Shown here in pieces: positions 8,448 to 22,952 of a DNA stretch of 64,000 bases. Each line of letters starts with the position of its first letter. The first letter of the stretch is position 1. A program made the position numbers and the translations under genes. The stretch is from Ceratodon purpureus (lineage: Eukaryota > Streptophyta > Bryopsida > Pseudoditrichales > Ditrichaceae): positions 87,052,526 to 87,116,525 of the forward strand of contig CM026426.1 of the NCBI GenBank assembly GCA_014871385.1, written 5' to 3'. A model generated the notes under the pieces. It was not told where the DNA came from. It saw only the letters and a list, made by a program, of their open reading frames with translations, and ran no database searches.

Positions 8448-8456
8448 CTTCAAGTA
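8448..8456 (+). repeat. 9-bp target site duplication, left (CTTCAAGTA)
   Basis: CTTCAAGTA lies immediately before the left terminal inverted repeat and recurs in the same orientation immediately after the right one at 22944-22952. Nine base pairs is the classic target duplication length of Mutator-like elements. Confidence 0.93.
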
Positions 8457-8782
8457 GGGTCTCTCTATTCTCCCCCATCAAGCGGTGCTAACCTTTCCTT
8501 CGCGGTCAGGGGCAGCGCCCGATGGGGGACGCTCTCACGCTCCCCTCGCGCCCGCGTTCCCATGCCCCTGGCTCCCATCGCCCCCGGCTCCCATCGCCCC
8601 CGGTCCCCGGTCCCCGTCCCCCCCCCCGCGCCCGTCGAGGTCGCCCAGCCCGTGGAGCATCCCCGTTCCCCCCCGCCCGCCCGCGAGCTTCTCATCCGCC
8701 GCCCGAGGCTTCATCCCGGTGGACACCTCATCCAGGGGGCGTCGTCTCTCTCGCTCACGCCGTCGTTTTGGCGACGTCGTGT
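8457..8782 (+). repeat. Left terminal inverted repeat of the MULE
   Basis: About 326 bp, extremely C-rich, matching the reverse complement of 22620-22943 with only a handful of differences. Similarity stops after 'ggcgacgtcgtgt'. It contains the repeated word 'tcccatcgcccccggc'. The proline-rich ORFs here simply reflect its composition. It is probably the promoter and the transposase-binding end for the rightward transposase gene. Confidence 0.93.
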
Positions 8783-9048
8783 TGCCCTCATGAATTCGCG
8801 CCGCCTCGACGACGGCTGGGCGCACTGTTCACCGTGATGGGAGGGCGATGGCACAGCGAGGTGCTTGGACAGGAGTTCCGTCGCTGTGATCGGGGAATTG
8901 CGATGCAGAGGAGTATTGTAGTGCTTGTGACCTGCTTCAATCAATGAGTTCGTATCTTGTTTGGTTGTTGCTTTTTTTTTGTACACATTGAAGCTTCCAT
9001 TATTCGTTTTGGGAATGTAGTGTGTCCTGATGCATCGGACACCATGCA

Positions 9049-12000
9049 ATGGGAGATCTGGTGGAGGGCCGGGAGCAGGCTCCGGCTCCTGGGGGTGGTG
9101 TCGACTTCGGCTGCTTCGAATTAGGCGTGGTTCAGACAGGTCCCGGGAGGCATGGAGCAGAGCCCAGACGGTGCTCTCATGAGGTTTCTGGTCGAGAAGA
9201 GCCCGGTAGAAGCCACGGTGGTTTAGATCTGAACTCTGTCGTGGACCTCTCTCTTGTTGGAGATGAGTGGCGATGGGAGGGCGACGGCATCATTGGCGGA
9301 TTTACAGAGGAAACTAGGGGTTTAATTCGACAACCGGATCTCCTTAGTCATGGGCTGTTGGGACAATGCAGCGATTTCGAGCTACATAGAGGAAAGGAAG
9401 GGCACCATGTGGAGAGGACTGGCGGCTCTGGCATGGAAAACAGGAGGGACGGGGTCGAGAGCTCTTCCGATGTGGAGGAAGGACGTACCAATGGCTGTGG
9501 CATTGTTGTTGGCGACAGTCCAAACCGCTGTTTGGATGCTCCGGGAGAGTTAGAAAGGGGTGCTGGAGAAGTTCATATTAACGGAGAAGGATCTGGACCT
9601 GACCAGCAGCCGAGTAATGCACCTGTCCGGAATGTCGACAGTGATGAAGACGACTTCACAGATATCGTACAGGTTAGAGAAGACACCGAGGCTGCAGAGG
9701 CGCTGGCCGAGAAGAAGAAGAGAGCGCTTTGGAGGAAGATGCCCAAAAAAGTGAAGCGGTCTGTCCAGGTACCACCACCGGGTCCATTCAGCAGGGCCGA
9801 TCTCATCTGGGAATCGAAGGATAATGTTGGGAATGGAAAGCGGAGACAGACTCAAAAAGCAACTATCCCATGGGATCGGCTTGATGACTTCCTCGAAGGG
9901 GAGATGTCTGGGCGACAACATCCCTGCACGTTTGTGGAGGAGTCCCGAAAATGCATGAAGCGGGACGAGAGAAAACAGATCCGGGCAGAGTCCCCAGCGC
10001 AAGAAGTTAGGTACGACTTCAGGGATGTTCTGTAATGTATGTAATAGTTTTTGTTTTTCCTGTCCAAGTTCATATGATTCTAACCTGATCAGACCTACCC
10101 ACTGCCTACCATTTTCTTTAAAAATGTTTGTGGCTCTTCTACAGTTACTGGTGCCAATTTGGCCCGGAGGACTACAGCCGCCAGTATAAAGAGTCCTTTC
10201 GGAAGGTTTTTGCCCATGTTCTGGTGGAGAGGAAGAACTCCACAAACCAGAAGAATGCACTGAAGCGAGCTCAGAAATTGGTCGATAAAGCGGCAAAGGA
10301 GGCTGAAAAGAAGGCTCGTCCGAAGAAAAAAGGAAAACAGCAACCTGTCCTGGATCTGAATGTGGATGCTCCAGATGAAGACGAGGAGGAAGAGAGAAGA
10401 ATCCAAGAGGCACAGCAGCAGCTACTACAAGCACAGGCACTGATTGAGGCAGCCTCCAGGCCCAGGAGAAAGACTAGGGTTAGCAAAATTCAATCTGGAC
10501 TTTCCATGAAACGTGGTTGCCAATGCAATTTTGTGGCCAAACAATTGCTAGTGGATGAGTCTCTTTGCACAATTCATTTCCACTGTATGACTCATACTAA
10601 CTGGGAGGGGAAGCCGTGCCACGGAGCTGAGTTTTTGGGACAGAGAGCAGGCCTGTCCGGGCACTTGTCTGCAGCCACTAAGAAGTGGATCGAAGATACA
10701 CTCAGGTCAGGTAAGTCCCCTGCCCAAGTAATGGCGGATCACAAGACCGAGGTGATGAGGTGTGCAGAGCAAAACCTACCTGCGTGTCGTGATACGTTTA
10801 TCATGCCGTCCGACGTGTACAATATTGCAAACAAGCTTGCCAAAGAACTCTGGGAGAAGCACCCCAATGATGCCATGAGCGTTAGGCTTTGGACAGACGA
10901 AAACCCCGACTGCTGGTATCACTACCGGGAATATGGAACCTTGCAGTTGAATGATCTTCCACCACCTGAAGATGATCCATTCTGCCTCGCAATACAGACC
11001 GAATGGCAGCTTGAGATGATGGTAAGGCATGGTCATGGAAGGGCGCTCTCCATGGATGCCACCTTCTCCACCAATGCTCCCAAGGTATGCTGACATTGCT
11101 TCACTGTTCTGATGAAATATTCGTCTGTCTTGAAATATTTAGGTTTAGGGCTGAAGCTATAAAAGTGGCTCCTACCTGTTCTGACATTGTCACTTGCCTG
11201 GCCGGACTGTCTAATAGTACCCCCTCTACACTGTTATGGTGTTCGATGAGTGGGAGCAAGGTATCCCGGTTGCTTTCACCATACAAGGAAGGTCCAGAGA
11301 AGTTGACATCACTCCTTGGCTGAGAAAGTTGCGGGATCGCTGTGTAGCCATTAAACCGGATTGGATGCCCAACGCCTTCCTCGTGGATAATGATGATGCC
11401 GAGTTGAATGCAATACGGTATTCCCCTAGAATGCCTTCAAACACTTCTTGGGCGCTGCTGTCTTGGTCTGATTGTTTTTTATTTTGTGCCGTCTCCTTGG
11501 ACAGAATTGTGTGATGAATCTGGATCTCACTGTGATTCTTTGTCCTTGCAGAAAGGTGTGGCCGGAGGCAGATGCCCTTCCTGGACAGAAGAAAGAGGAA
11601 GTTGCAATTCTACTATGCCTATGGCACACTAGGAAGGCATGGCTGGAGAACGCAACTCAGAAGATCAAGGCGAATTATTTACGGACAGAGGTTCTAACTG
11701 CATGTGCAGATCTGATGTACGGCAATGGAATTCTGCAGGGAGACTTGGCTGTCCAGGCTGCCAGAGAGCGTTTTCAGTTTCTGAAGGCCAAGTACCCGCA
11801 AGCGAAGGCATTTTTTGCCTACTTCGAGACTCACTGGATTCCGAAGATTGAGATGTGGGTCAGAGGATACAGGAACATGCCTCACGCTAATCAGGACACC
11901 AATGCGGCTGTGGAGAGCTATCATGCGAATCTGAAAGCACTCCTGCGCATGTCAAGGGCGAAATTCGATGGTTGAAGGGTGGATTGGCTGCTGTACCACC

Positions 12001-12734
12001 TGCTGAAGGACGTCCTGATTCATTATTGGTACGCAGTACAATGTAAGTTGTATGGATTTATCAAGAACGGAAAGGCAGAGGGCATTGTGGCTAATGCTGT
12101 CATCAGGGCAGAAGAGATAACTGACGAGCATGTCCTGATTGACACGGAGCAAGATGTGGCTTACGTTGCTTCTGTGACAAATTTTGGACAGGTCTGGGTA
12201 GTGACAAGTCCGAATTCTGATTGGGCTCACTGTAATTGTCCACTGGGGATGAGGGGAAACACTTGCAAACACGTTGTTAAGGTTTTTAGGATGCTGAACA
12301 TCGATGCTGAGCCGTCTGATATTATAAGGTACGCAGGCACATTGCGAGGGACCATTCAATTGGGGTGCAAGCCTGCAGGGATTGCGAGCATTTGTGAGGT
12401 TGGGGTGCTAGAGGGAGCCCCGGACAGGGGGAAACAGGTAACCACTGTTGATGATCCAGCAAAGAAGATTCGCAGTTACCGATCTGTCTTGGCAGATTTG
12501 GACACTCTAGGTGTGGAGAACCCTACTCTACTGGACAACTTCATTGCAATGGCGAACGAACTGAAGGGAAAAATGGCGTCTTTCAAGGTCAAGTCTGATG
12601 CTGGTTTGTTGCATCCCCTTTCACAGCCTTCGTTCAAGGTTGGAGCCGGACCAAAGAACCTGCGAAGATTTAAGGCCTGCTCAGAGTTAGGGACTAAGAA
12701 ACGAGGGGGGCAGTCCAGAAAATGGAATTCTTAG
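9049..12734 (+). pseudogene. MULE transposase (MURA-like) with SWIM zinc finger, one internal TGA
   Basis: Four exons can be joined in frame with GT-AG introns: 9049-10010, 10145-11084, 11218-11417 and 11552-12734, about 1,094 residues. The N-terminus (to ~residue 320) is acidic and low in complexity. A WRKY/GCM1- or FLYWCH-like zinc module follows at about 445-485 (RGCQCNF…HTNWEGKPCHG). The DDE core has D625 in MDATFSTN, D691 in FLVDNDD and E822 in NAAVESYH. A SWIM finger (CNC…CKH) starts at about residue 928. The product would cut and paste the element at its terminal repeats. One codon is broken: TGA at 11973-11975 (about residue 842), just before RVDWLLYH, where relatives carry Arg, so CGA to TGA is likely. 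Without readthrough the SWIM finger would be lost. The exact start is uncertain. Confidence 0.9.
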
Positions 12735-13720
12735 AAGTAGAGGGCTAGAGAGTCCACTGTATCTCATACAATTTTTTGGAACATATTGAAGCATACCATA
12801 CCTGTATTTCCCTGTCTTGGCAAATGTTCTTACTTCAATACAGTTTCTCCCACATGCTTCTTATTCGCATATTGTGTCATTGCTATAGCATGCTCCAGTC
12901 CCTTTGCCGATCTTATCTTCACAATGAAATGAACTATACACTCTTGACCTGTCCACGGTATAATTTCAGTCACTTGGAACACCTTACTCTCTGTCCAAAC
13001 TTACTGAAGCAACATTTCCACGGTCGTTACCTGTATTCTCGGTCTTCAAGACTATGTCGTTTTATTCTCTGTTATATCTCGGTGTTAGACTTCTTTTACG
13101 AATTTCCTTTTATTTTTTAACTTCCATTCTCAGCCTCATGAACCCTCTCTGTCATTCGGTTTCTTGTTTTCTTTCCCTTTATATTTTCCCACTATTTTAT
13201 TTTAATTCTCTATAGCCCTCCTTTGGTTCACTTCAAGTCTCCTAGCCCTTGTCTCCCTTTCCTCCCATACCCACCCTCCTACATGCTCTTTTTTATTATT
13301 TGTCAACATTTTGGTTCATTCCTTTTTTCCTTTCAAAGTTTTGTGGATTCGGTTCTCTCCCAGTTCTTCATACTCCTCTCTAGTATCTCCCACACCCACC
13401 CCCATACTCCCTCACTTCAAATTTTTATTCTGAAAACCTTCCTTTTTTCCTTTTTTTTCCTTTCTCTCCCTCTGTTGTCCTCCAGTTCACTTCATTCCCC
13501 TCCCTTATCTCCCCTACCCATACTAACACCCCCTTCGTTTCAGTACTTCCTCTTATCACTTTTTTTTTTTTTTTTTTTTTTTTTAAATATTTTTTTTTTG
13601 GTTTTTTTCTTTTTTTTTCTCTCGGTTGTCCTCCACTTCTATTCAGTCTCCTCCATTACCTCCCATACACACCCCTACACTCCATCCATTCCTTTTTTTT
13701 TTTGGTTTTTATTTTTGGCC
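12735..13720. repeat. 3' flank of the transposase, then a C/T-rich degenerate repeat array
   Basis: No gene. Two tandem-like stops (TAG…TAG) end the transposase. From about 13230 the plus strand becomes C/T-rich, with units of roughly 120 bp sharing 'cacttc-..-ctccc-tatctcccc-acccacac', interrupted by T runs at 13559-13584 and 13590-13618. The same unit type reappears beyond the oxygenase gene at 16050-16700. Confidence 0.6.
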
Positions 13721-13726
13721 AGTTGT

Positions 13727-14094
13727 AGTAATTGGGGGCCCCAGCTACCCTAATTGGGGCCCCAGCTGTAGTAATTGGGGGCCCCAACTGCATTAGTTGG
13801 GGCCCGAACTATAATAGTTGGGGGCCCCAGCTGCACTAGTTCGGGCCCCAGCTGTAGTAGTTGGGGGCCCCAACTGCATTAGTTGGGGCCCCAGGTGTAA
13901 TAGTTGGGGGCCCCAGATGCACTAGTTCGGGCCCCAACTATAGCAGTTGGGGGCCCCAGCTGCATTAGTTGGGGCCCCAGGTGTAATAGTTGGGGGCCCC
14001 AGCTGCTATAGTTCGGGCCCCAGCTGTAGTAATTGGGGCCCCAGCTGTAGTAATTGGGGGCCCCAGCTGCAGTAGCTGGGAACCCCTCTACAAT
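13727..14094. repeat. GGGGCCCC minisatellite, about 17 units of 21-22 bp
   Basis: The unit is approximately agttgggggccccagctgcatt, with palindromic GGGGCCCC and AGCTG cores, and units alternate between two or three subtypes. The final unit lies about 220 bp upstream of the dioxygenase ATG. The ORF that reads through it on the minus strand is a repeat artefact. The units have no conserved-repeat/unique-spacer structure, so it is not CRISPR-like. Confidence 0.92.
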
Positions 14095-14316
14095 TTTAAA
14101 ACTTTTAATCTTTTTAAATTTAGTACATACTTTTACTTTCATTTTTATTTTTGAAATTACTTTTACTTTGAAAACTACAGTAAAAGCTTGTTTAAATAAC
14201 TACATAATATACAGAAAGTATGTTTTTTTATTCATTATAATCTATATAACAATTTATTACCTTACACTCTATCACTTGATAATTGAGCTATCTATAATCA
14301 TTTATTTTCTAACGAG

Positions 14317-15897
14317 ATGGAAGAGATTGTACTTCATCAGGCCAAAAAGCCCAGAATTGCACAAGTCACTGCTCTAAACTTTATGGATGCTCAAAATATT
14401 TTAGAGTTGATTTATGATTCTAATACTAGAGGATGTAAAACTCCACAACACAAACAAAAATTATTTGATCGTTTGTATGTTCTTCCATGCAAAAAAACCC
14501 TACAGTGGCCTTATTTCTATAAAATATTTACTGAACCTGAATCAAGGGTAGATTTGCCTCCTCATACAAAACAACAATATTATGTCCAATTTTGCCACAA
14601 AATTTGTAGTGATTGTCTTCAAAAGTCACCATGCTGTCCTCTATGTGAAAATATTGAGAATCTTGATTTCTCAAAGCATACGAAATATATCTTTGATACA
14701 TCTATCACAAAAGATATTGAAATAACCAGTTTGCAAAATTTTCATGATACATTTCAAAATTTACAAGTTTTTTTACAAAAATTGAGTGAAAAAAACAAAG
14801 GGAAGATGTCTTTTTCATACAAAATTCTTCAATGTATATTGGTGGAAAAAGGACATCTTGAATTATCTATTCTCAAGCAATTTGACATTAAAACAAACAT
14901 GAGAATTGTCATTAGTTACACAAGCATTCCATCAAATAAAAATAAACTGGGAGTACCATATTGGGAAAATAAAAAATTTGAAAAGGCATGGCAAAATGTT
15001 TATCAAGACAATCATCTTATACCAACAACGTCTACTGCTTTATTACTATTAGATGGTAATAAATTATTGAATGATAAAATATTAAATTCAAGTGATTTAT
15101 CACTCAATCAAGTTTTATTTATTTATATTCCTGAAATATGGAATAATGATGTGGTCGCATATCAAACCACATTAGCTCAAGCAGATATATATTATGAAAC
15201 TGCTCCATTCGAGGGAAAATCAAATCAAGAAGATCCAAAACGAGGCTCGTATAAGTCTGTAGGCCATGGGTACATAGCACATGGAGGAATAGACTCAAGA
15301 GGAAATGTGGTACCATATGATAGAAAAAACATGTCTGAGAGCAAAAAAATTGCTTTCAGACGCATTGGGGATTCTGTTGCTTCTAAGATATGGAAGGCAT
15401 TGGATTTATTTGGACGACCAGTTAAAGAATATTTTACAAATCAATTACAAGCTATAAATTGTATAGCGATTGGATTAGATTCGTATCCAACACAAGTGCA
15501 TCAATTACACATGTCCAAGAATTCTTTTATCAAGCCACACATTGATAAATTAGATTTTGATTGCTCTTTCGTGTGTTGGTTCATTGAAGGATATCCCAAA
15601 GGAGGTGAATTTGGAATTTTTCAACATTGTATGAAGCTCGAGAATAATAATGGAGCAGGGGTATTTGTATTCAGCAAATATGTTAGCCACGGAACATTAC
15701 AATTTGATTCCAATTCATTATCAGCAACTAATTTTAAGCTAGGGTGTGCCCTGGTTAACAAAGAAGCGATTTGTACTAGAGTTAAAAATCAGCTTCAAAG
15801 TGAAAATCCAATCACTTGGAAACATATCCCATACATAAGTTATATTGATACTGGAAATTGTGAAAGTCAGGATGTAAATGAAAATGATAATGTGTAA
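14317..15897 (+). CDS. 2-oxoglutarate/Fe(II)-dependent dioxygenase, TET/JBP-like candidate, MULE cargo
   Basis: An intact, intron-free ORF of 526 residues ending in TAA. The C-terminal half shows the double-stranded beta-helix pattern: H408-x-D410 in KPHIDKLDF, a GGEFGIF turn at 429-435, the distal metal ligand H458 in VSHGTLQF, and a basic residue K474 (FKLGCAL) where 2-oxoglutarate is normally bound. An N-terminal cysteine cluster (about 93-112, CHKICSDC…CCPLC) probably binds zinc. Enzymes of this fold oxidise methyl groups or side chains. TET/JBP members act on 5-methylcytosine or thymine in DNA, and related fungal genes travel with DNA transposons. That makes DNA modification the favoured guess, but AlkB-like or prolyl-hydroxylase-like activity is not excluded. 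The gene is visibly more AT-rich than the neighbouring transposase and is flanked by C/T-rich repeats, suggesting separate acquisition. The start was chosen as the first ATG of the frame after the minisatellite. Confidence 0.8.
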   Translation: MEEIVLHQAKKPRIAQVTALNFMDAQNILELIYDSNTRGCKTPQHKQKLFDRLYVLPCKKTLQWPYFYKIFTEPESRVDLPPHTKQQYYVQFCHKICSDCLQKSPCCPLCENIENLDFSKHTKYIFDTSITKDIEITSLQNFHDTFQNLQVFLQKLSEKNKGKMSFSYKILQCILVEKGHLELSILKQFDIKTNMRIVISYTSIPSNKNKLGVPYWENKKFEKAWQNVYQDNHLIPTTSTALLLLDGNKLLNDKILNSSDLSLNQVLFIYIPEIWNNDVVAYQTTLAQADIYYETAPFEGKSNQEDPKRGSYKSVGHGYIAHGGIDSRGNVVPYDRKNMSESKKIAFRRIGDSVASKIWKALDLFGRPVKEYFTNQLQAINCIAIGLDSYPTQVHQLHMSKNSFIKPHIDKLDFDCSFVCWFIEGYPKGGEFGIFQHCMKLENNNGAGVFVFSKYVSHGTLQFDSNSLSATNFKLGCALVNKEAICTRVKNQLQSENPITWKHIPYISYIDTGNCESQDVNENDNV

Positions 15898-16257
15898 ATT
15901 TCTTGTAATTACTTCATTTCAGTGTAAAGTAATTAATTTGTAATAGATTAATAAGTTGGTTCTATTTACAACCCTTTTTGTATATTTATTTTAAATTTTA
16001 TAAAAACAATAAACATTTGTAACTCTGTATGACTGAAGACAGATATTTAAATTCGACTGTCTTCCATTTCTCCTCTCTCCCCTCCCTTATCTCCCCTAAC
16101 CAACCCCACACCCCTTCCGTTCCCCCTCTTCTATTTTTTTTTTTATTTTTCTATTTTCTCATTTTTGGTTTGCCTGTCCGGCTGTGTTCCATTTCTCCTC
16201 TCTCCCCTCCCTTATCTCCCCTAACCAACCCCACACCCCTTCCGTTCCCCCTCTTCT

Positions 16258-16288
<31 letters not shown>

Positions 16289-17200
16289 GTTTTTTTATTT
16301 CAGTTTTTGTTTGCCTGTCCGGCTGTGTTCCATTTCTCCTCTCTCCCCTCCCTTATCTCCCCTAACGAACCCCACACCCCTTCCGTTCCCCCTCTTCTAA
16401 TTTTGTTTTTTTTTAATTTTTTTTTCATTTTTTGTTTGCCTGTCCGGCCGTGTTCCATTTCTCCTCTATCCCCTCCCTTATCTCTCCTACCCAACACCAC
16501 ATCCCTTCCATTGCTTTCTTCTCTCTTCCTTTTATTATATATTTTTTTTTTGTTTTTTTTTTTTTTAAGTGTCGGACTGTCTTCCATTTATCCTCTCTCC
16601 CCTCCCTTATCTCCCCTACCCAATCTGGCAATTTCATTATTTTTCTCTTCCTCTTTTTATTTTATATTTTTATTTGTTTTTAAATTCGACTGTCTTCCAT
16701 TTTTTAAGTTTTTTATTTTTTTAATTTTTTTTCCTTTAATTTCATTAATGGATTCCTTATATTCTATATGATTTCTATCCTGTAGTCGTCTACTTCAAGA
16801 CAGCGGGCTCAAGCTTTGGCAAAGACATGGACCTGTCCGGAAAATTATACGGCGTACATGCATGGAAACGACCATCCCACACCATATTCATTGACAAAGA
16901 AAGACATCTGTACATTCGGATAACTCATAAAACGTATTATATATGAAGTTCAAAATTCTAAAATGAAGGAGAGAATATGAGAGTTCAAAGTGAAGTCTGC
17001 TCAGCAAATAATCCGAAAGAAATGGAAGAAAAAATAAATGGTTCCTCAGTTTCCGAAAATATATGCCGTGGCAATGTTGCCTAAGTTTTGAAAGGAGGCC
17101 AAAGTATCGACCTCAAGTTCTACTGAAAAAAACCGAAGCTTCATAACTCTCCGGATTCAGACTGGATGATTGAACTAGCAAAACTCATGGACTCCACCCC
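15898..17200. repeat. C/T-rich tandem repeats (units of 120-140 bp) and T runs; no gene
   Basis: Five to six units begin with 'tgtccggctgtgttccatttctcctctctcccctcccttatctcccc' or a variant, near 16052, 16173, 16314, 16439, 16567 and 16685, separated by poly-T. Three of them contain the exact word CCTGTCCGG. The ORFs across this block are compositional. 16770-17200 is the shared 3' region of the convergent genes, with nothing recognised. Confidence 0.8.
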
Positions 17201-20200
17201 CTAGACAGACGGCAGCTCCACTACCGGGTCGCATGAGGCTGCCTGAACCGAGAAAAGAGGCGCTGCCTCGGTCTCAGCCACACCCTCACCTAGCTTCTTC
17301 ACGGAATCTCTTGGGGAAAGGCTGAAGTCCCAGGGGTCACTTCTGTCCGAACGGGAGGGCTCCTCATGCTCATTGCTTGGAGCAGCTTCATGTGCCTGTC
17401 CGAAAATCCTCACCTGATCAATAGTGCATAGAACTTGAGAGGCCTTCCACTCATCTAGGTCCTCTAGGTCGTCTGTAACATTCCAAACCTGTAGCTTTCC
17501 ATGCAAGTGATGGAGGCTGTCCTGAAGGAGCTCCTTCGCTGCTCTGAAAAGCCCATGTCCAGCGGCTGGCCAGATTCCTGTAGCCTCAAGGGATCCGAAA
17601 ATGTAACCCAAGTCCAGATTTTCACGATACAGCAGAACGATTCGGAATGCATTGGAGACCAACTCGTAGTCGACACCCTCCCTGGTGACCCACATGTCCC
17701 GCAGCAAGCTCTTCTTGTCCAAAGCTAGCATATCAAGACAGGCCCTCACAAAGGTGTCACGGCCCCAGCAATGGTACTGTGCCACCTCTCCCCTTTGATC
17801 AATGCAATCATCCAACACAAGCCGGAATGTCTCAAAAGACACACTCTGTGTATCCATTGTGGGGAAGTAGATCTTCCCAACCCGTATGAGCTCTTCCATC
17901 GCAATAAGAATCTGTTCCCCCCGGTCCTTCATCGTCTCCTGAGTGAGGCCTAGAACAGGGCAAAGCATGGGCATACGTGACCCGAGCTCACTCTTAGCAA
18001 ATAACTTCAGAGCCCGTGCCATGTGGGGTGGCTCGTTCTTCTCGCCTATTCTCCTCCCTTCCATCTCAATCCACTTGACAAGTCCCTCGAACTCCTCCTC
18101 CGAATGCTCGTAAGGCCTGCTAAGACACCTGGGCTGCGGTTCGCACTTGAACTCTCTGAAGAGGGGAGACCAAACCCACTCCTCGTCCTCCTCCTCAATC
18201 CGTATCTTGATATCGTATCCGGACATCTGCTCTGCAACGAAGGCAGCCCGATTCCTATGAACCTGATCCACTAGTCCCTCGAAGTCCCTCTGGCGGGCCA
18301 AGAACGTCAGGACATCGTCGTGATGCAGGTAGAATAGGTGAATCTCCCTGGTAATGGCCCCTCTGTCCTTGTAGGCAAATGCATTCTTACACTTATCGAT
18401 CGCAGCAACAACCGGTAAGGGCAAGGAATCCTGTCGAAATCAAAGGAGACGGTATAAGCTGCATGTCAAGACATTGCCAAACCTTTCAACAAAAAAAACT
18501 AGACAAGAAATGCAATAAGCCCCTAAACCGTAAACCATCAACTTACTGCTAATTCGGGGTCGAATTGGAGCGCCCCCCAAGCAGCCGAGACCTTGCCTGC
18601 CAACTCCCCTGTAGAGTTCAACCTCCGTAGCCACTCCATCGGTGCTTGAAGGTCGCCCATGAGTTCAGTTGGAACTATTGTTCCAAAGAACTCCTGGAGT
18701 GAGTAGAGACCTGGAGGACTTGCGGGTCCGGTTGGAGCACTGGTCGGGTCGACTGTTGGATAAATCTCCCGAGCTTTCTCCCATGCGGCTGTCTTGAAGT
18801 CCTGCCTCGCCTTCCTTGCTCCCACCAGCGGCACGCAGGGAGGAGGTACCCATGCACAACCCCCCCCATCCCCCACCCCCGGCTCTCTCGTTTGCTGCCC
18901 CGATTCCCCTGCTCCCGGCTCCGCTCCAGCCGTTTCCGCATCACCCACTCCAACCTCTCCTTTCTGCTGCCCCCCTTCGCCTGCTCCCGACACGGCTTCT
19001 AGGTTCCCCGCATTGCCCCCTCCCGGCTCTCGTACCACCTGCCCCGCATCGCCCACTCCTGGCTCTCGTACCACCTGCCCCGCATCGCCTAGTACTGCCT
19101 CCTCTGCGCCCGTACCCGCAGTCTCCAGTCCCCCTTCCGGTGCTTGCTTCCATGCAGCCCCTCGTCCACCGCTGCCCACGGCCTCCTTCGCAACCGCATC
19201 ATCTCCCCCAGCCCCCATCGCCTCCCCTCCCCCTCCCCCTGTCGCTGCCCCTCCTCCCACGCTGTGCGGCTCCATCGCAGCCTCCTCGCCCTCTTCACCT
19301 CCCGACCCAACCAATATCACGTCGTCTCCCCCACCGTTGTCTGAGTCAGAATCCCGGAACTTCCTCTTCTTCCCCTTCGCCCCCCCCGACGCCTGCTCTT
19401 GTGCCGCCGCTGCCCTAGTCCTCCCTCCCATACCCTCTGCTGGAGTTTTAAACCCATGAAACGTCACCCGCCTACTGTTGCCCCCCTTCTTCACCTTCCT
19501 CTTCCCCCCCACCCTACCCGAACTTTCTCCCTCGGATTCGTCATCCTCGGGGACGCCCTTCTTCTCTGTTTTCTTCTTACCTCCGGTTGATCCTCCCAAA
19601 CGCCGTCCCCTGAATGCAGTGCCTGCCTGACGCCTAGGAGTGTCCGATTTCGGCACTCCTCCCTCGGCCCCGACGCCCTCGTGTTTGCCCTCTTTTATCT
19701 TCCTCAAAATATCAGCCACGCTATCCCCGTCCCCGAGTAGTCTCCTCTTCGCTCCAGGTTCCTGTAAGTTGTCCCCCTCCCGTCTCTCCCCGGCAGGTGC
19801 CCCTTCACCCCCATGTGCTTGTCTGTCCAATGCATCACCCACCCCGCCTACAGCATGTTCAGAACCCCCCTGCGCCTCCTCTCCACCTGCGGCGTCATCC
19901 CCCTTGCCTCCGGGGCGATCGCCCCCTTCACCCCCTCCCTGTCCGGACCTGGTTTCATTCCCCTCTTCTCCAATCGCCCCCTTATCCCCCCCCTGTCTGC
20001 ATTCACGTAAACCTGTCCGGGCCCCTCCTACGCCTTCTCTGGGAGGTACTACCTCTACCCCACTTCTTTCCCTTCGATGCCGAGGACTCCCAAGGGGTCG
20101 ACCTTTCTTAAGCCTCCCCCCGGCCCTAGGCTTCCCGTCTCCCTCTGGACTAGTGACAACCGCGGCTTCCTGTTCTCCAGCATACCTGTCCGGGTGAGGG

Positions 20201-21150
20201 TCAGCACTGCCAGCCGCTCCCTCTCCGTCTCCATCTTCTCCTGAGTCCGTCTCCCTTACCCTTTTTTTTTTCCCCTTGCTACTCCCATCTTTCGCCGGTG
20301 TCGGTCGCTTGCCGATCATCTGCCACGGTAGAGGAATCCTGTACTTCTGGAAAACAGCCCTTGCCACTTTGTTGCCGTCTAAACCCCTGGCCGGATAGAT
20401 CTTCAGCGGCCCACATTCCTTATAACAGTAGCACTCACACATCCCCATCTTGCGGTGCCATCCGAGTGTAGCCTTGTCCACGAACTCCATCTCGCAGTAT
20501 TTGCAAATGAAAGGGATCTTCAACCTGGTCTTCCCCTTACCTTTGTCTTCTTTCGATTCCCCTTTGCCCCTGTACAGGAGGTTCACCTCGACCATTAGCC
20601 AATCATGCTCGGAGCTAGTGAAGGCGTCTCTATTTGCATCATACCCTGCAGCCACGCTGGTACACACGATAACCTCCTCCGTACCGTGTTTCCCCTGCAC
20701 AAGCAACTGGAATTCCAAACCACCGACCTAAATGAGGGACATCATCAAACAAGGAATGTACACACTGTAAGGAACGGATCGGTGACACTATAGACAGGCG
20801 GGCAGCAATGGTAACTCGATAGGAGGACACCTAAGCAACCCGGACAGGGCAACACAACAATGACCCGCTGAGACAATGCACTTCTATGAAACCATAGTGT
20901 AATTCAGGAAGTGGCACAGTTAACATACCCCGGGCACCACCCCTGGTTCCATAGTGGCGATTTTTCGTTGCCACTCTTTGGAGAGCTTTGTAACATCGAG
21001 CTCCGTGGCCCAACCCTCCAGAACGTCGACTGCATCTGCTGGCCGGACTTTAGACAGGTCCGGCGTCTCCTTTTGATTTATCTACAGAAGTAGAAAATAA
21101 TCAGTGAAAACCGTAAACATGAAACGAATCAGTCGACAGAATGACTAACC
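17201..21150 (-). CDS. Spliced gene for a C2HC-finger, low-complexity protein; third MULE gene, function unknown
   Basis: Read on the minus strand, three exons join in frame: 21081-20929, 20727-18547 and 18430-17201 (donors GTATGT and GTAAGT; acceptors ending TAG and CAG), about 1,187 residues. A further short exon ending at 21150 (…LPGWIA, donor GTTAGT) probably precedes them, but its own start was not found. Near the N-terminus lies C-x2-C-x12-H-x5-C (FICKYCEMEF…GWHRKMGMCEC), likely a zinc finger. Next come about 500 residues rich in Gly, Glu, Ala and Lys with nuclear-type basic patches (KGKKKRVRE), including a repeated VVREPGVGDAGQ unit. The last exon is an ordinary folded-looking domain of about 410 residues that I do not recognise. 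Position and orientation resemble the second gene of MuDR or the VANB/VANC genes of VANDAL elements. It could be a DNA-binding accessory or anti-silencing factor, but this is inference. Confidence 0.7.
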
Positions 21151-21348
21151 GCAATCCAGCCGGGCAGGTGAAGATTACAGTCCGGACGGGGTTTTTAAAA
21201 ACAGAAATTGAGCCAGAAAAGAATTCAAGAAATACTGCATGGAAGGTAAAAAAGTAGAAGTTCATCGGAAAGCTGATGAGTATGAGATCTTAGCCTAAAA
21301 CCCGTCAAGGAGATAACTGCAGGAAAGTACCAAATGAGAGAATGAAAA

Positions 21349-21381
<33 letters not shown>

Positions 21382-22619
21382 CAAAAGAATAGAAAGAACA
21401 AAAACAGTGAAGAAACGATCAGAAAAACAAACCGACCTGAACATACACAACAGAGTCTGATAGAAATTCAGGACAGGTGAAGTGAGTATCAGAAACGGAA
21501 ATAAAAACTCCATAGAGAAAGAAGAGAGCAAAACCAGGAAAAAAATGAATGAGAGAAAAATAAAACAAATAAACCAAAAAGTGCAGGACGAGACAATGGC
21601 GAAAAAAATAAATAGACTGAAACGCATGTTCGAACATGGAGAAATCAGTAAAGTAGAATGACAGATACGAAGAGAAAGTCCAGTATGGAGAAATAGGAAA
21701 ACATCTGGTCCGAAAGAAATGGGCAGTTCCAGAAAGACATTGCTGGACAAAAAAAGAGGAAAAAAAAAAAAAACATAGGTGAAAACCATATGAAAGAAAA
21801 TGACGATAAAACCATAAAAGAATGTTTAGAAAGGAAGGAAACGAAAAAATGGAAGGGCTCGAAACAAGCATAAAAAAAAAAAAAACAATAATTTGAAAAC
21901 CAGAAGGGACAAAGTAAACTGACCAATTAGAACCTTATTAGTTACCCACGGGGACAGGTAGAGACACCAGCAGATGGAGACATGGCGGAGAGGTAAAAAA
22001 AAACTAAATTAAATATCATGAGTAAACACCCGGACATGCAATCAGAAGCAGAAAAAAGGATCGCTGTGCGAGGAGGAAATACCAGACTAACGGGTATTCA
22101 GACCAGCACGAACAAAACCACAAAGGACATCATAAGAGACAGTAAACCAAAAAGTCCACAACAGAATGAGACACTAAGCCCAAAGAAAAAAAAAAAGAAA
22201 AAAAAACAGTGACATCAAGCTTACCAACTCCCTCAAGGACTTCATCGGATGTCCTCCCCACCTCGAACAGCCTCTCCCTCGGCCCGATATACTACCTCCA
22301 ATCCCCTGTCCGAGCTCCAAACTCTTCCACCTAGCTCATTCCGACCATCGGTATGAGCTCCTCAACAAAGCGCCATCTCCTCCGGTCCAGCGTCACCGAC
22401 TACATTGTTGCCGAAGCCGCCAACCCTCCATGGCCGCATTCATGAACCCGTAAACCAAACTCACCATTTTCTAGAAAACCCTAATCGCTACAGACCTAGA
22501 CAGAACTAAACCCAAAACAAAGTCTCCCATTTCACGCACAATCCTCCACACAGCAGCATTACCTCCCTAACACATCCTGTCCGAAGCTAGAGAGAGCTGC
22601 GACGTTCACGACACCCAAG
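21151..22619. other. A-rich tract and possible decayed 5' exons of the minus-strand MULE gene
   Basis: 21300-22210 is A-rich with homopolymers (21340-21380, 22190-22206) and reads like a long T-rich intron on the minus strand. On that strand, a stretch from about 22400 to 22214 ends in a good donor (GTTG|GTAAGC) and carries a coding-like frame (RRRWRFVEELIPMVG…), but it holds two TAG codons. It may be a decayed first exon or leader. Confidence 0.35.
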
Positions 22620-22943
22620 ACACGACGTCGCCAAAACGACGACGTGAGCGAGAGAGACGACGCCCCCTGGATGAGGTGTCCACCGGGATGAAGCCTCGGG
22701 CGGCGGATGAGAAGCTCGCGGGCGGGCGGGGGGGAATGGGGATGCTCCACGGGCTGGGCGACCTCGACGGGCGCAGGGGGGGACGGGGACCGGGGACCGG
22801 GGGCGATGGGAGCCGGGGGCGATGGGAGCCACGGGCATGGGAACGCGGGCGCGAGGGGAGCGTGAGAGCGTCCCCCATCGGGCGCTGCCCCTGACCGCGA
22901 AGGAAAGGTTAGCACCGCTTGATGGGGGAGAATAGAGAGACCC
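22620..22943 (-). repeat. Right terminal inverted repeat of the MULE
   Basis: Inverted copy of 8457-8782. The outermost bases on the plus strand read …gaatagagagaccc and are followed at once by the duplicated CTTCAAGTA. Confidence 0.93.
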
Positions 22944-22952
22944 CTTCAAGTA
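22944..22952 (+). repeat. 9-bp target site duplication, right (CTTCAAGTA)
   Basis: Identical to 8448-8456 and in the same orientation. Confidence 0.93.

Follow-up and report, generated by a model that had tools for sequence, protein, structure and literature searches.

The stretch of DNA analysed here, called the window throughout, comprises 64,000 nucleotides of the moss Ceratodon purpureus (GenBank assembly GCA_014871385.1, contig CM026426.1, positions 87,052,526 to 87,116,525; C6:87052526-87116525 in our numbering), and contains a complete Mutator-like element (MULE) that carries, beside its transposase gene, an intact gene for a predicted iron-dependent oxygenase. The reading that we consider fairly probable is that this gene encodes a divergent TET/JBP-type Fe(II) enzyme whose nearest characterised relative is CMD1 of Chlamydomonas reinhardtii, that it was taken up by one MULE lineage and moved with it, and that it would act as an anti-silencing factor for the element.

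A reading made earlier from the letters of the window alone, hereafter the sequence-only reading, had described the gene as an intact open reading frame (ORF) for a transposon-borne 2-oxoglutarate (2OG)-Fe(II) dioxygenase with an N-terminal cysteine cluster. The ORF is indeed intact, its motifs stand in exactly the positions and order given, and the cluster is real; the features of the gene are as follows, A1 being an alignment of the window protein with five paralogues that are 43-97% identical to it (6 of 15 near-full-length rows).

14317..15897, + strand: intact oxygenase gene, predicted TET/JBP-like (CMD1-like), with ATG start, 526 residues and no stops
14593..14646, + strand: Cys/His cluster C93-H94-x2-C97-x2-C100-x6-C107-x2-C110, RING-like, invariant in A1
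15538..15555, + strand: H408-x-D410-x2-D413, predicted iron ligands and counterpart of CMD1 Asp350, from the alignment and A1 invariance
15577..15579, + strand: W421, counterpart of CMD1 Trp358, from the alignment and A1 invariance
15601..15612, + strand: GGEF (429-432), F432 being the counterpart of CMD1 Phe371, from the alignment
15688..15696, + strand: H458-G-T460, predicted distal iron ligand and counterpart of CMD1 Thr399, from the alignment and A1 invariance
15736..15738, + strand: K474, at the place of CMD1 Arg410 and TET2 Arg1896 by residue counting only, A1-invariant

Re-reading of the codons confirmed the positions of H408, D410, G429-G430-E431-F432, H458 and K474. Invariant across A1 (n=6) are H408, D410, D413, W421, G429, G430, F432, H458, T460 and K474, and C58, C93, H94, C97, C100, C107 and C110 are likewise unchanged in 6/6 sequences; the cluster is RING-like in look, a RING profile being matched weakly by one of the six members (E 0.004). 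The ORF is a real gene and more than a product of chance, because its own genome holds many copies of it, stop-free ones included, and because the substitutions between copies are biased towards synonymous ones. In that genome (362 Mb searched) at least 96 matches to the oxygenase protein were found (best 82 of 386 candidates). At least six of them, the window's included, cover the full 526 residues at 94-100% identity, four being stop-free and two having one stop each; besides the window there are thus three full-length stop-free copies, 95-97% identical, among the matches listed. A seventh full-length match (71% identical) has many stops and other matches are fragmentary, while the more distant relatives at 43-48% identity include open ones among the matches listed.

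By profile comparison the protein is a divergent oxygenase of TET/JBP type, reached through intermediates, with CMD1 as its nearest characterised relative. The Pfam families Tet_JBP (PF12851) and Tet-like 2OG-Fe(II) oxygenase (PF20515) are linked to it through three moss loci, L047, L054 and L056, and not by a direct match. A genome search with PF20515 gave 10 places, among them the intron-bearing genes L047-L049 below cut-off (E 0.14-0.53), and a profile built from the oxygenase family alone (15 sequences, L036 and L038 being left out as badly broken) finds, among the 1840 sequences of the database searched, the exon-joined models of L047-L049 with E values between 1.3e-7 and 3.2e-7; every other row of that search up to E 10 is the family itself, the same L047-L049 loci or an L047-type piece in L043. 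The comparison of the family with the L047-type models by hhalign returned a probability of 94.8, whereas 30 column-shuffled controls reached 4.8 at most. The L047 model in turn matches Tet_JBP (E 1.2e-5, 25.1 bits, curated cut-off 34.9), PF20515 (E 1.4e-4, 22.4 bits vs a cut-off of 27) and, in the PDB, CMD1 (E 1.2e-4). Tet_JBP itself gives 59 places in the genome, one over the curated cut-off and many weak; L054 scores 1.3e-8 (34.7 bits, just below the cut-off) and L056 2.6e-6, and CMD1 is the sole PDB match of L056 up to E 1, at 6.5e-7. These bridge loci thus have Pfam scores of their own below the curated cut-offs. Built only from L047, L054, L056 and L057, a profile detects a 75-residue segment of CMD1 (E 8.6e-14) as well as the window ORF (E 1.1e-6); with the family and two L047-type rows combined in one profile, CMD1 comes up at 1.8e-6, no other match being better than 0.11.

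The active site can be compared with that of CMD1 (PDB 7cy4-7cy8), the core of which was aligned with H408, D410, D413, W421, F432, H458, T460 and S400 of the window protein. In CMD1, His345, Asp347 and His397 hold the iron and Asp350 contacts N4 of 5-methylcytosine (PMC7854593); the triad is aligned as H408/H345, D410/D347 and H458/H397 (window protein/CMD1), and D413, five residues after the first His, is aligned with Asp350, so that on this alignment both the iron site and the contact to cytosine are preserved. Mutation of the CMD1 vitamin C contacts Thr337, Trp358, Thr399, Arg244 or His249 abolishes activity (PMC7854593), and three of these are aligned as W421/Trp358, T460/Thr399 and S400/Thr337, the last a conservative change; F432 is aligned with Phe371. 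All seven placed residues (H408, D410, H458, D413, S400, W421 and T460) are invariant in A1. CMD1 uses vitamin C, and its Trp358 stands where TET2 has Arg1896, so that 2OG would clash with it (PMC7854593). Vitamin C rather than 2OG may therefore be the co-substrate, because W421 and T460 match CMD1 contacts, whereas K474 points instead to 2OG: by spacing it stands at the second 2OG-Arg place (TET2 Arg1896), where L047, L054 and L056 carry Gln, and a counterpart of TET2 Arg1261 was not located. Of the earlier label, the iron triad and an oxygenase of TET/JBP type, the latter by way of the bridges, are retained, and the 2OG part is put in doubt by W421, the counterpart of the Trp that excludes 2OG in CMD1, with K474 keeping 2OG possible. 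The window protein differs from CMD1 in its low overall similarity, being found only through a bridge, and in having K474 for Arg410 and A478/V480 for Ser414/Phe416; CMD1, unlike the window gene, is nowhere called transposon-borne in the available part of PMC7854593.

The element that carries the gene is a MULE, and the earlier claim of a transposon-borne gene is borne out by its terminal inverted repeats (TIRs), its 9-bp duplication, its PF10551 match and three joint insertions. Its parts are these.

8457..22943, no strand: complete MULE, with TIRs, 9-bp duplication and MULE transposase
8448..8456, no strand: left copy of the 9-bp target site duplication CTTCAAGTA, read directly
8457..8782, + strand: left TIR, 320/326 aligned positions identical to the right TIR (98%)
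9049..12734, + strand: MULE transposase gene of several exons (ORFs 9049-10035, 10128-11093, 11472-11975 and 11979-12734)
13719..16030, + strand: module of a minisatellite followed by the AT-rich gene, delimited by blastn, common to copies without such a MULE around them
13719..14080, no strand: 43-bp minisatellite of 8.4 copies in which the palindrome GGGGCCCC is frequent, a short way upstream of the oxygenase gene
17201..18424, - strand: further element ORF of 407 residues, no Pfam match at E up to 1, relatives in the element copies c2 and c3
18538..20718, - strand: further element ORF of 726 residues, partly low-complexity, with a weak C2H2-like motif (E 0.14)
22620..22943, - strand: right TIR, from the alignment to the left TIR
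22944..22952, no strand: right copy of the 9-bp target site duplication CTTCAAGTA, read directly

The spliced transposase, its exons joined by eye before the search and its stop set as X, matches the Pfam family MULE (PF10551) at E 1.1e-10 (42.2 bits, cut-off 27.6) and SWIM at E 0.01, below cut-off; among its ORFs there is also a match to DUF5575_C (E 7.3e-6). The minisatellite varies in length among the copies looked at. The two minus-strand ORFs occur also in c2 and c3 and, by eye, near the copy c8.

Two further copies, c2 (C3:20.06M) and c3 (C6:65.88M), align with the window element end to end, TIRs included, and have the gene at the same place. They are flanked by 9-bp duplications of their own, CTTGTCTAC and GTTTGAGAC respectively, and the last TIR base differs in c3. 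TIR alignments of 310-329 bp together with a 9-bp duplication are thus present in 3/3 copies examined, and the oxygenase gene lies inside the element ends in 3/3 copies compared in full. Since the window element, c2 and c3 each have their own duplication, the MULE has moved together with the gene at least three times. The left half of the window element is 95-97% identical to c2 and c3 and the right half (16713-22943) only about 78-84%; because of this difference the element looks like a mosaic of two MULE lineages. C. purpureus genomes are of about 300 Mb, with 12 autosomes and distinctive U/V sex chromosomes (PMC9273592), and C6, the contig of the window (110.5 Mb), is suggested to be a sex chromosome.

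How the gene is distributed among related elements was seen by overlaying the transposase matches (150 printed of 152; best 150 of 643 candidates) on 67 merged oxygenase loci, which came from 68 of the 96 match rows, the other 28 being further pieces of loci already included. Downstream of each of the six top transposase matches (93-100%), at a distance of 802-1592 bp and on the strand of the transposase, stands the gene or a remnant of its last 127-160 codons; the remaining 144 matches listed have no listed oxygenase copy within 9 kb, although weaker remnants could be missed. This distribution fits a single uptake in one MULE sublineage. The five nearest relatives of the window element all carry it, two at full length (one with a stop) and three as remnants, so that absence of the gene from all other copies, a result that the sequence-only reading had named as one that would speak against it, was looked for and not found.

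Selection on the gene could be assessed among the three MULE-borne copies, between which its ratio of nonsynonymous to synonymous substitution rates (dN/dS, from counts that skip stop codons) is 0.14, 0.21 and 0.34, with dS 0.07-0.10. For three stretches of the transposase in the same copy pairs dN/dS ranges from 0 to 0.375 and dS from 0.03 to 0.08, one of the nine comparisons (dN/dS 0.375) being not significant (p 0.15). On these counts the cargo gene is constrained about as the transposase is while inside the MULE, because both are biased to synonymous substitutions between the same three copies. A similar range is seen in all 15 pairwise comparisons among six copies, MULE-borne or not (0.13-0.34, except 0.65 for c4-c6, where changes are few) and in six pairs with divergent relatives (0.17-0.24, dS being near or above 1 in five of them); four pairs with the relative d3 were too divergent for the computation.

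A number of results weigh against the reading of a CMD1-like anti-silencing gene carried by the MULE, and the first group concerns the identity of the protein. The window protein has no oxygenase and no Tet_JBP or Tet-like match in Pfam at E up to 1, none of the six A1 members matches Tet_JBP or Tet-like at E up to 10, PHROGs gave no match, and the PDB search with the window protein or its six-member profile gave no oxygenase; among the genome-wide matches listed for PF20515 or Tet_JBP the oxygenase family of the window does not appear. The link to CMD1 and TET needs the bridge, because the family-only profile alone reaches the CMD1 segment only at 0.14 (L054 at 2.8, L056 at 6.1), and it finds the L047-type exons singly only at E 0.013-0.13. 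In the active site, CMD1 Ser414, Phe416 and Arg418 correspond, by spacing only, to A478, V480 and K482, and the N-terminal part with CMD1 Arg244, Phe245 and His249 is not alignable. The AlphaFold model, computed from the single sequence without an alignment, has a predicted local distance difference test score (pLDDT) of 33, too low for a fold search. With such a model, and with an HxD...H pattern common to oxygenases of this kind, the gene might encode a hydroxylase of another kind whose iron motif is similar, such as one of prolyl hydroxylase or AlkB type. We regard this as very improbable, since L047, L054 and L056 match Tet_JBP, L047 also PF20515, and L047 and L056 CMD1, and since no such hydroxylase appeared in the PDB or profile searches with the protein, the family or the bridge models. 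Viral or prokaryotic relatives were not confirmed in the viral contigs or genome contigs searched either.

A second group concerns what the gene does for its carrier. The transposase of the window element is broken by one in-frame TGA at 11973-11975, the corresponding stretch being open in c2, and the oxygenase gene is open in c2 and has one stop in c3. Three of the six gene-bearing MULEs keep only a remnant of the gene beside a matched transposase stretch that is open, so the gene is dispensable for at least some copies. The ratio of CpG transitions to other C transitions, counted in alignment pieces longer than 1000 bases (600 for c8-d1), is 2.08, 1.87 and 1.94 in the three MULE pairs vs 2.48 and 2.16 in two comparison pairs; there is no clear escape from silencing in the gene-bearing pairs, and the control is weak because the comparison stretches hold a gene copy too, so that the result speaks neither clearly for nor against escape. 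The escape that had been proposed earlier, by way of a possible DNA demethylase, finds no sign here, CpG decay being about as raised in gene-bearing copies as in the comparison elements. MULEs tend to acquire fragments of host genes (PMC6446971), and the remnants, the stop in a full-length copy and the CpG decay would all suit a passive capture of the Pack-MULE type, in which the gene does nothing for the element. The dN/dS of 0.14-0.34 between copies that all lie within the MULE argues against it. A full-length ORF is moreover rare in passive capture, and we judge this explanation unlikely.

The third group concerns the ownership of the gene. The copies c4-c8 have only the module 13719-16030 in common with this MULE (blastn), and c4, c6 and the 71%-identical d1, whose surroundings are unrelated, end at an identical 3' sequence. 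A relative of 48% identity has two copies, 97% identical to each other, that have at least 3.6 kb in common, up to the upstream edge of the compared sequence, with a sharp 3' end, and four close relatives of this 48%-identity kind lie on four contigs. The gene might accordingly be carried primarily by a mobile unit separate from the MULE (about 2.3-2.7 kb, or longer) that inserted into one MULE lineage and is now a hitch-hiker there; the gene would then serve that unit or several carriers rather than this one MULE. We doubt this, although less than we doubt passive capture: such a unit showed no TIR, target duplication or transposase, the flanks common to c5 and c7 are much longer, and in the six nearest MULEs the gene has one place and one orientation, with the synonymous bias there. 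The sequence ATCTGTGG at the 3' end was considered as the target duplication of a small unit and rejected, since c4, c6 and d1 all have it there, but upstream it is present in c6 alone. The gene family does occur in several settings, because module copies sit in unrelated surroundings and relatives lie near CACTA or Harbinger transposases; of the earlier view of the gene as cargo of a MULE family, the movement holds, at least three times over, and the gene is not private to the MULE.

Among the relatives outside this MULE, d2, an open one of 47% identity (L025/L026, C6:81.49M), is found some 5.5 kb downstream of domains of a CACTA transposase (Transposase_21, DUF4216, DUF4218), and d1 about 8 kb from a Harbinger-type transposase (Plant_tran); both are observations of proximity to such domains. 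At L042/L043 (C11:13.52M) a Tet-like (PF20515) remnant adjoins a piece of L047 type, which lies on the opposite strand, and also, as judged by eye, part of a Harbinger-like transposase. Tet_JBP matches such as L054, L056 and L057 fall into several groups, scattered over the genome, whose frames are of similar length (371-379, 184 and about 136 residues), which suggests that TET/JBP genes outside the oxygenase family too have spread widely here, possibly by means of transposons. When 64 rows (59 Tet_JBP places and 5 PF20515 places, with same-place rows merged or dropped) were compared with the oxygenase family, three pairs lay within 20 kb vs 0.5 expected, too few to claim clustering.

The mechanism that we propose for the CMD1-like anti-silencing factor is as follows. 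One Mutator-like lineage would have taken up the gene, most simply once, and then moved with it. Like CMD1 and TET, the enzyme would flip methylated cytosine out of the DNA; it would then oxidise or glycerylate the methyl group of this base; the silencing mark on the element DNA would then be diluted at replication or excised, and with the mark lifted, transposase could be made. The product of CMD1 is 5-glyceryl-methylcytosine (5gmC) (PMC7854593), and the enzyme might instead mark or protect DNA with a hypermodified cytosine, an option discussed also for fungal elements (PMC12730594; Kojima, 2025). We give this a real, if minor, share of our belief, more than any other alternative considered here. 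However, 5gmC can be an intermediate of demethylation (PMC11065753), so that marking and demethylation are not exclusive. A bolder version of the proposal, which is speculative and in our judgement hardly more probable than passive capture, is that of a plant MULE with a CMD1-type enzyme that would glycerylate the methylcytosines of its own copies by means of vitamin C and so lift their silencing, as one branch of a transposon-driven TET/JBP spread in moss, convergent with that in mushrooms and rusts.

Among known systems, TET/JBP genes occur in ten fungal DNA transposon lineages, with transfer between superfamilies (PMC12730594; Kojima, 2025). The window element resembles these TET+ transposons as a DNA transposon with a TET/JBP-type gene whose family occurs in several carriers, and differs from them in that the carrier is a moss MULE, MULEs not being among the ten lineages named in the available part of that paper; the words MULE, Mutator and moss are absent from it, and MuDR occurs twice, both times within a single introductory passage on VANDAL and on SET genes. 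The nearest plant parallel is that of the VANDAL MULEs with their VANC proteins (PMC5735166; PMC10398659), also plant transposons with an anti-silencing factor of their own, which in the window is putative. VANC proteins are sequence-specific, whereas the factor in the window looks like a DNA-modifying enzyme. The sequence-only reading knew of no described MULE with such a gene, and in the literature searched, a partial look that leaves an earlier mention of moss TET/JBP genes possible, no plant transposon or MULE with a TET/JBP gene was found; word searches of a MULE survey (PMC6446971) and a review of plant gene capture (PMC13317346) gave no oxygenase.

A well-kept TET/JBP-like cargo gene in a MULE would extend the range of the fungal TET+ transposons, and the function proposed for it is plausible. 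If true, the extension would be both to a new host group and to a new transposon superfamily, and the gene might help a jumping element to undo the silencing imposed by its host. Plants rely on ROS1-type enzymes and base excision for the removal of methylcytosine (PMC11065753), and a TET/CMD1-like enzyme kept by selection in a plant transposon would therefore be an unexpected anti-silencing weapon. According to a 2025 paper on the mapping of 5gmC, this base has been documented in no other species (PMC12458080). The oxygenase family is a concrete candidate for 5gmC beyond C. reinhardtii, the combination of W421 and K474 makes the question of its co-substrate directly testable, and, if the reading is true, 5gmC chemistry would occur in land plants.
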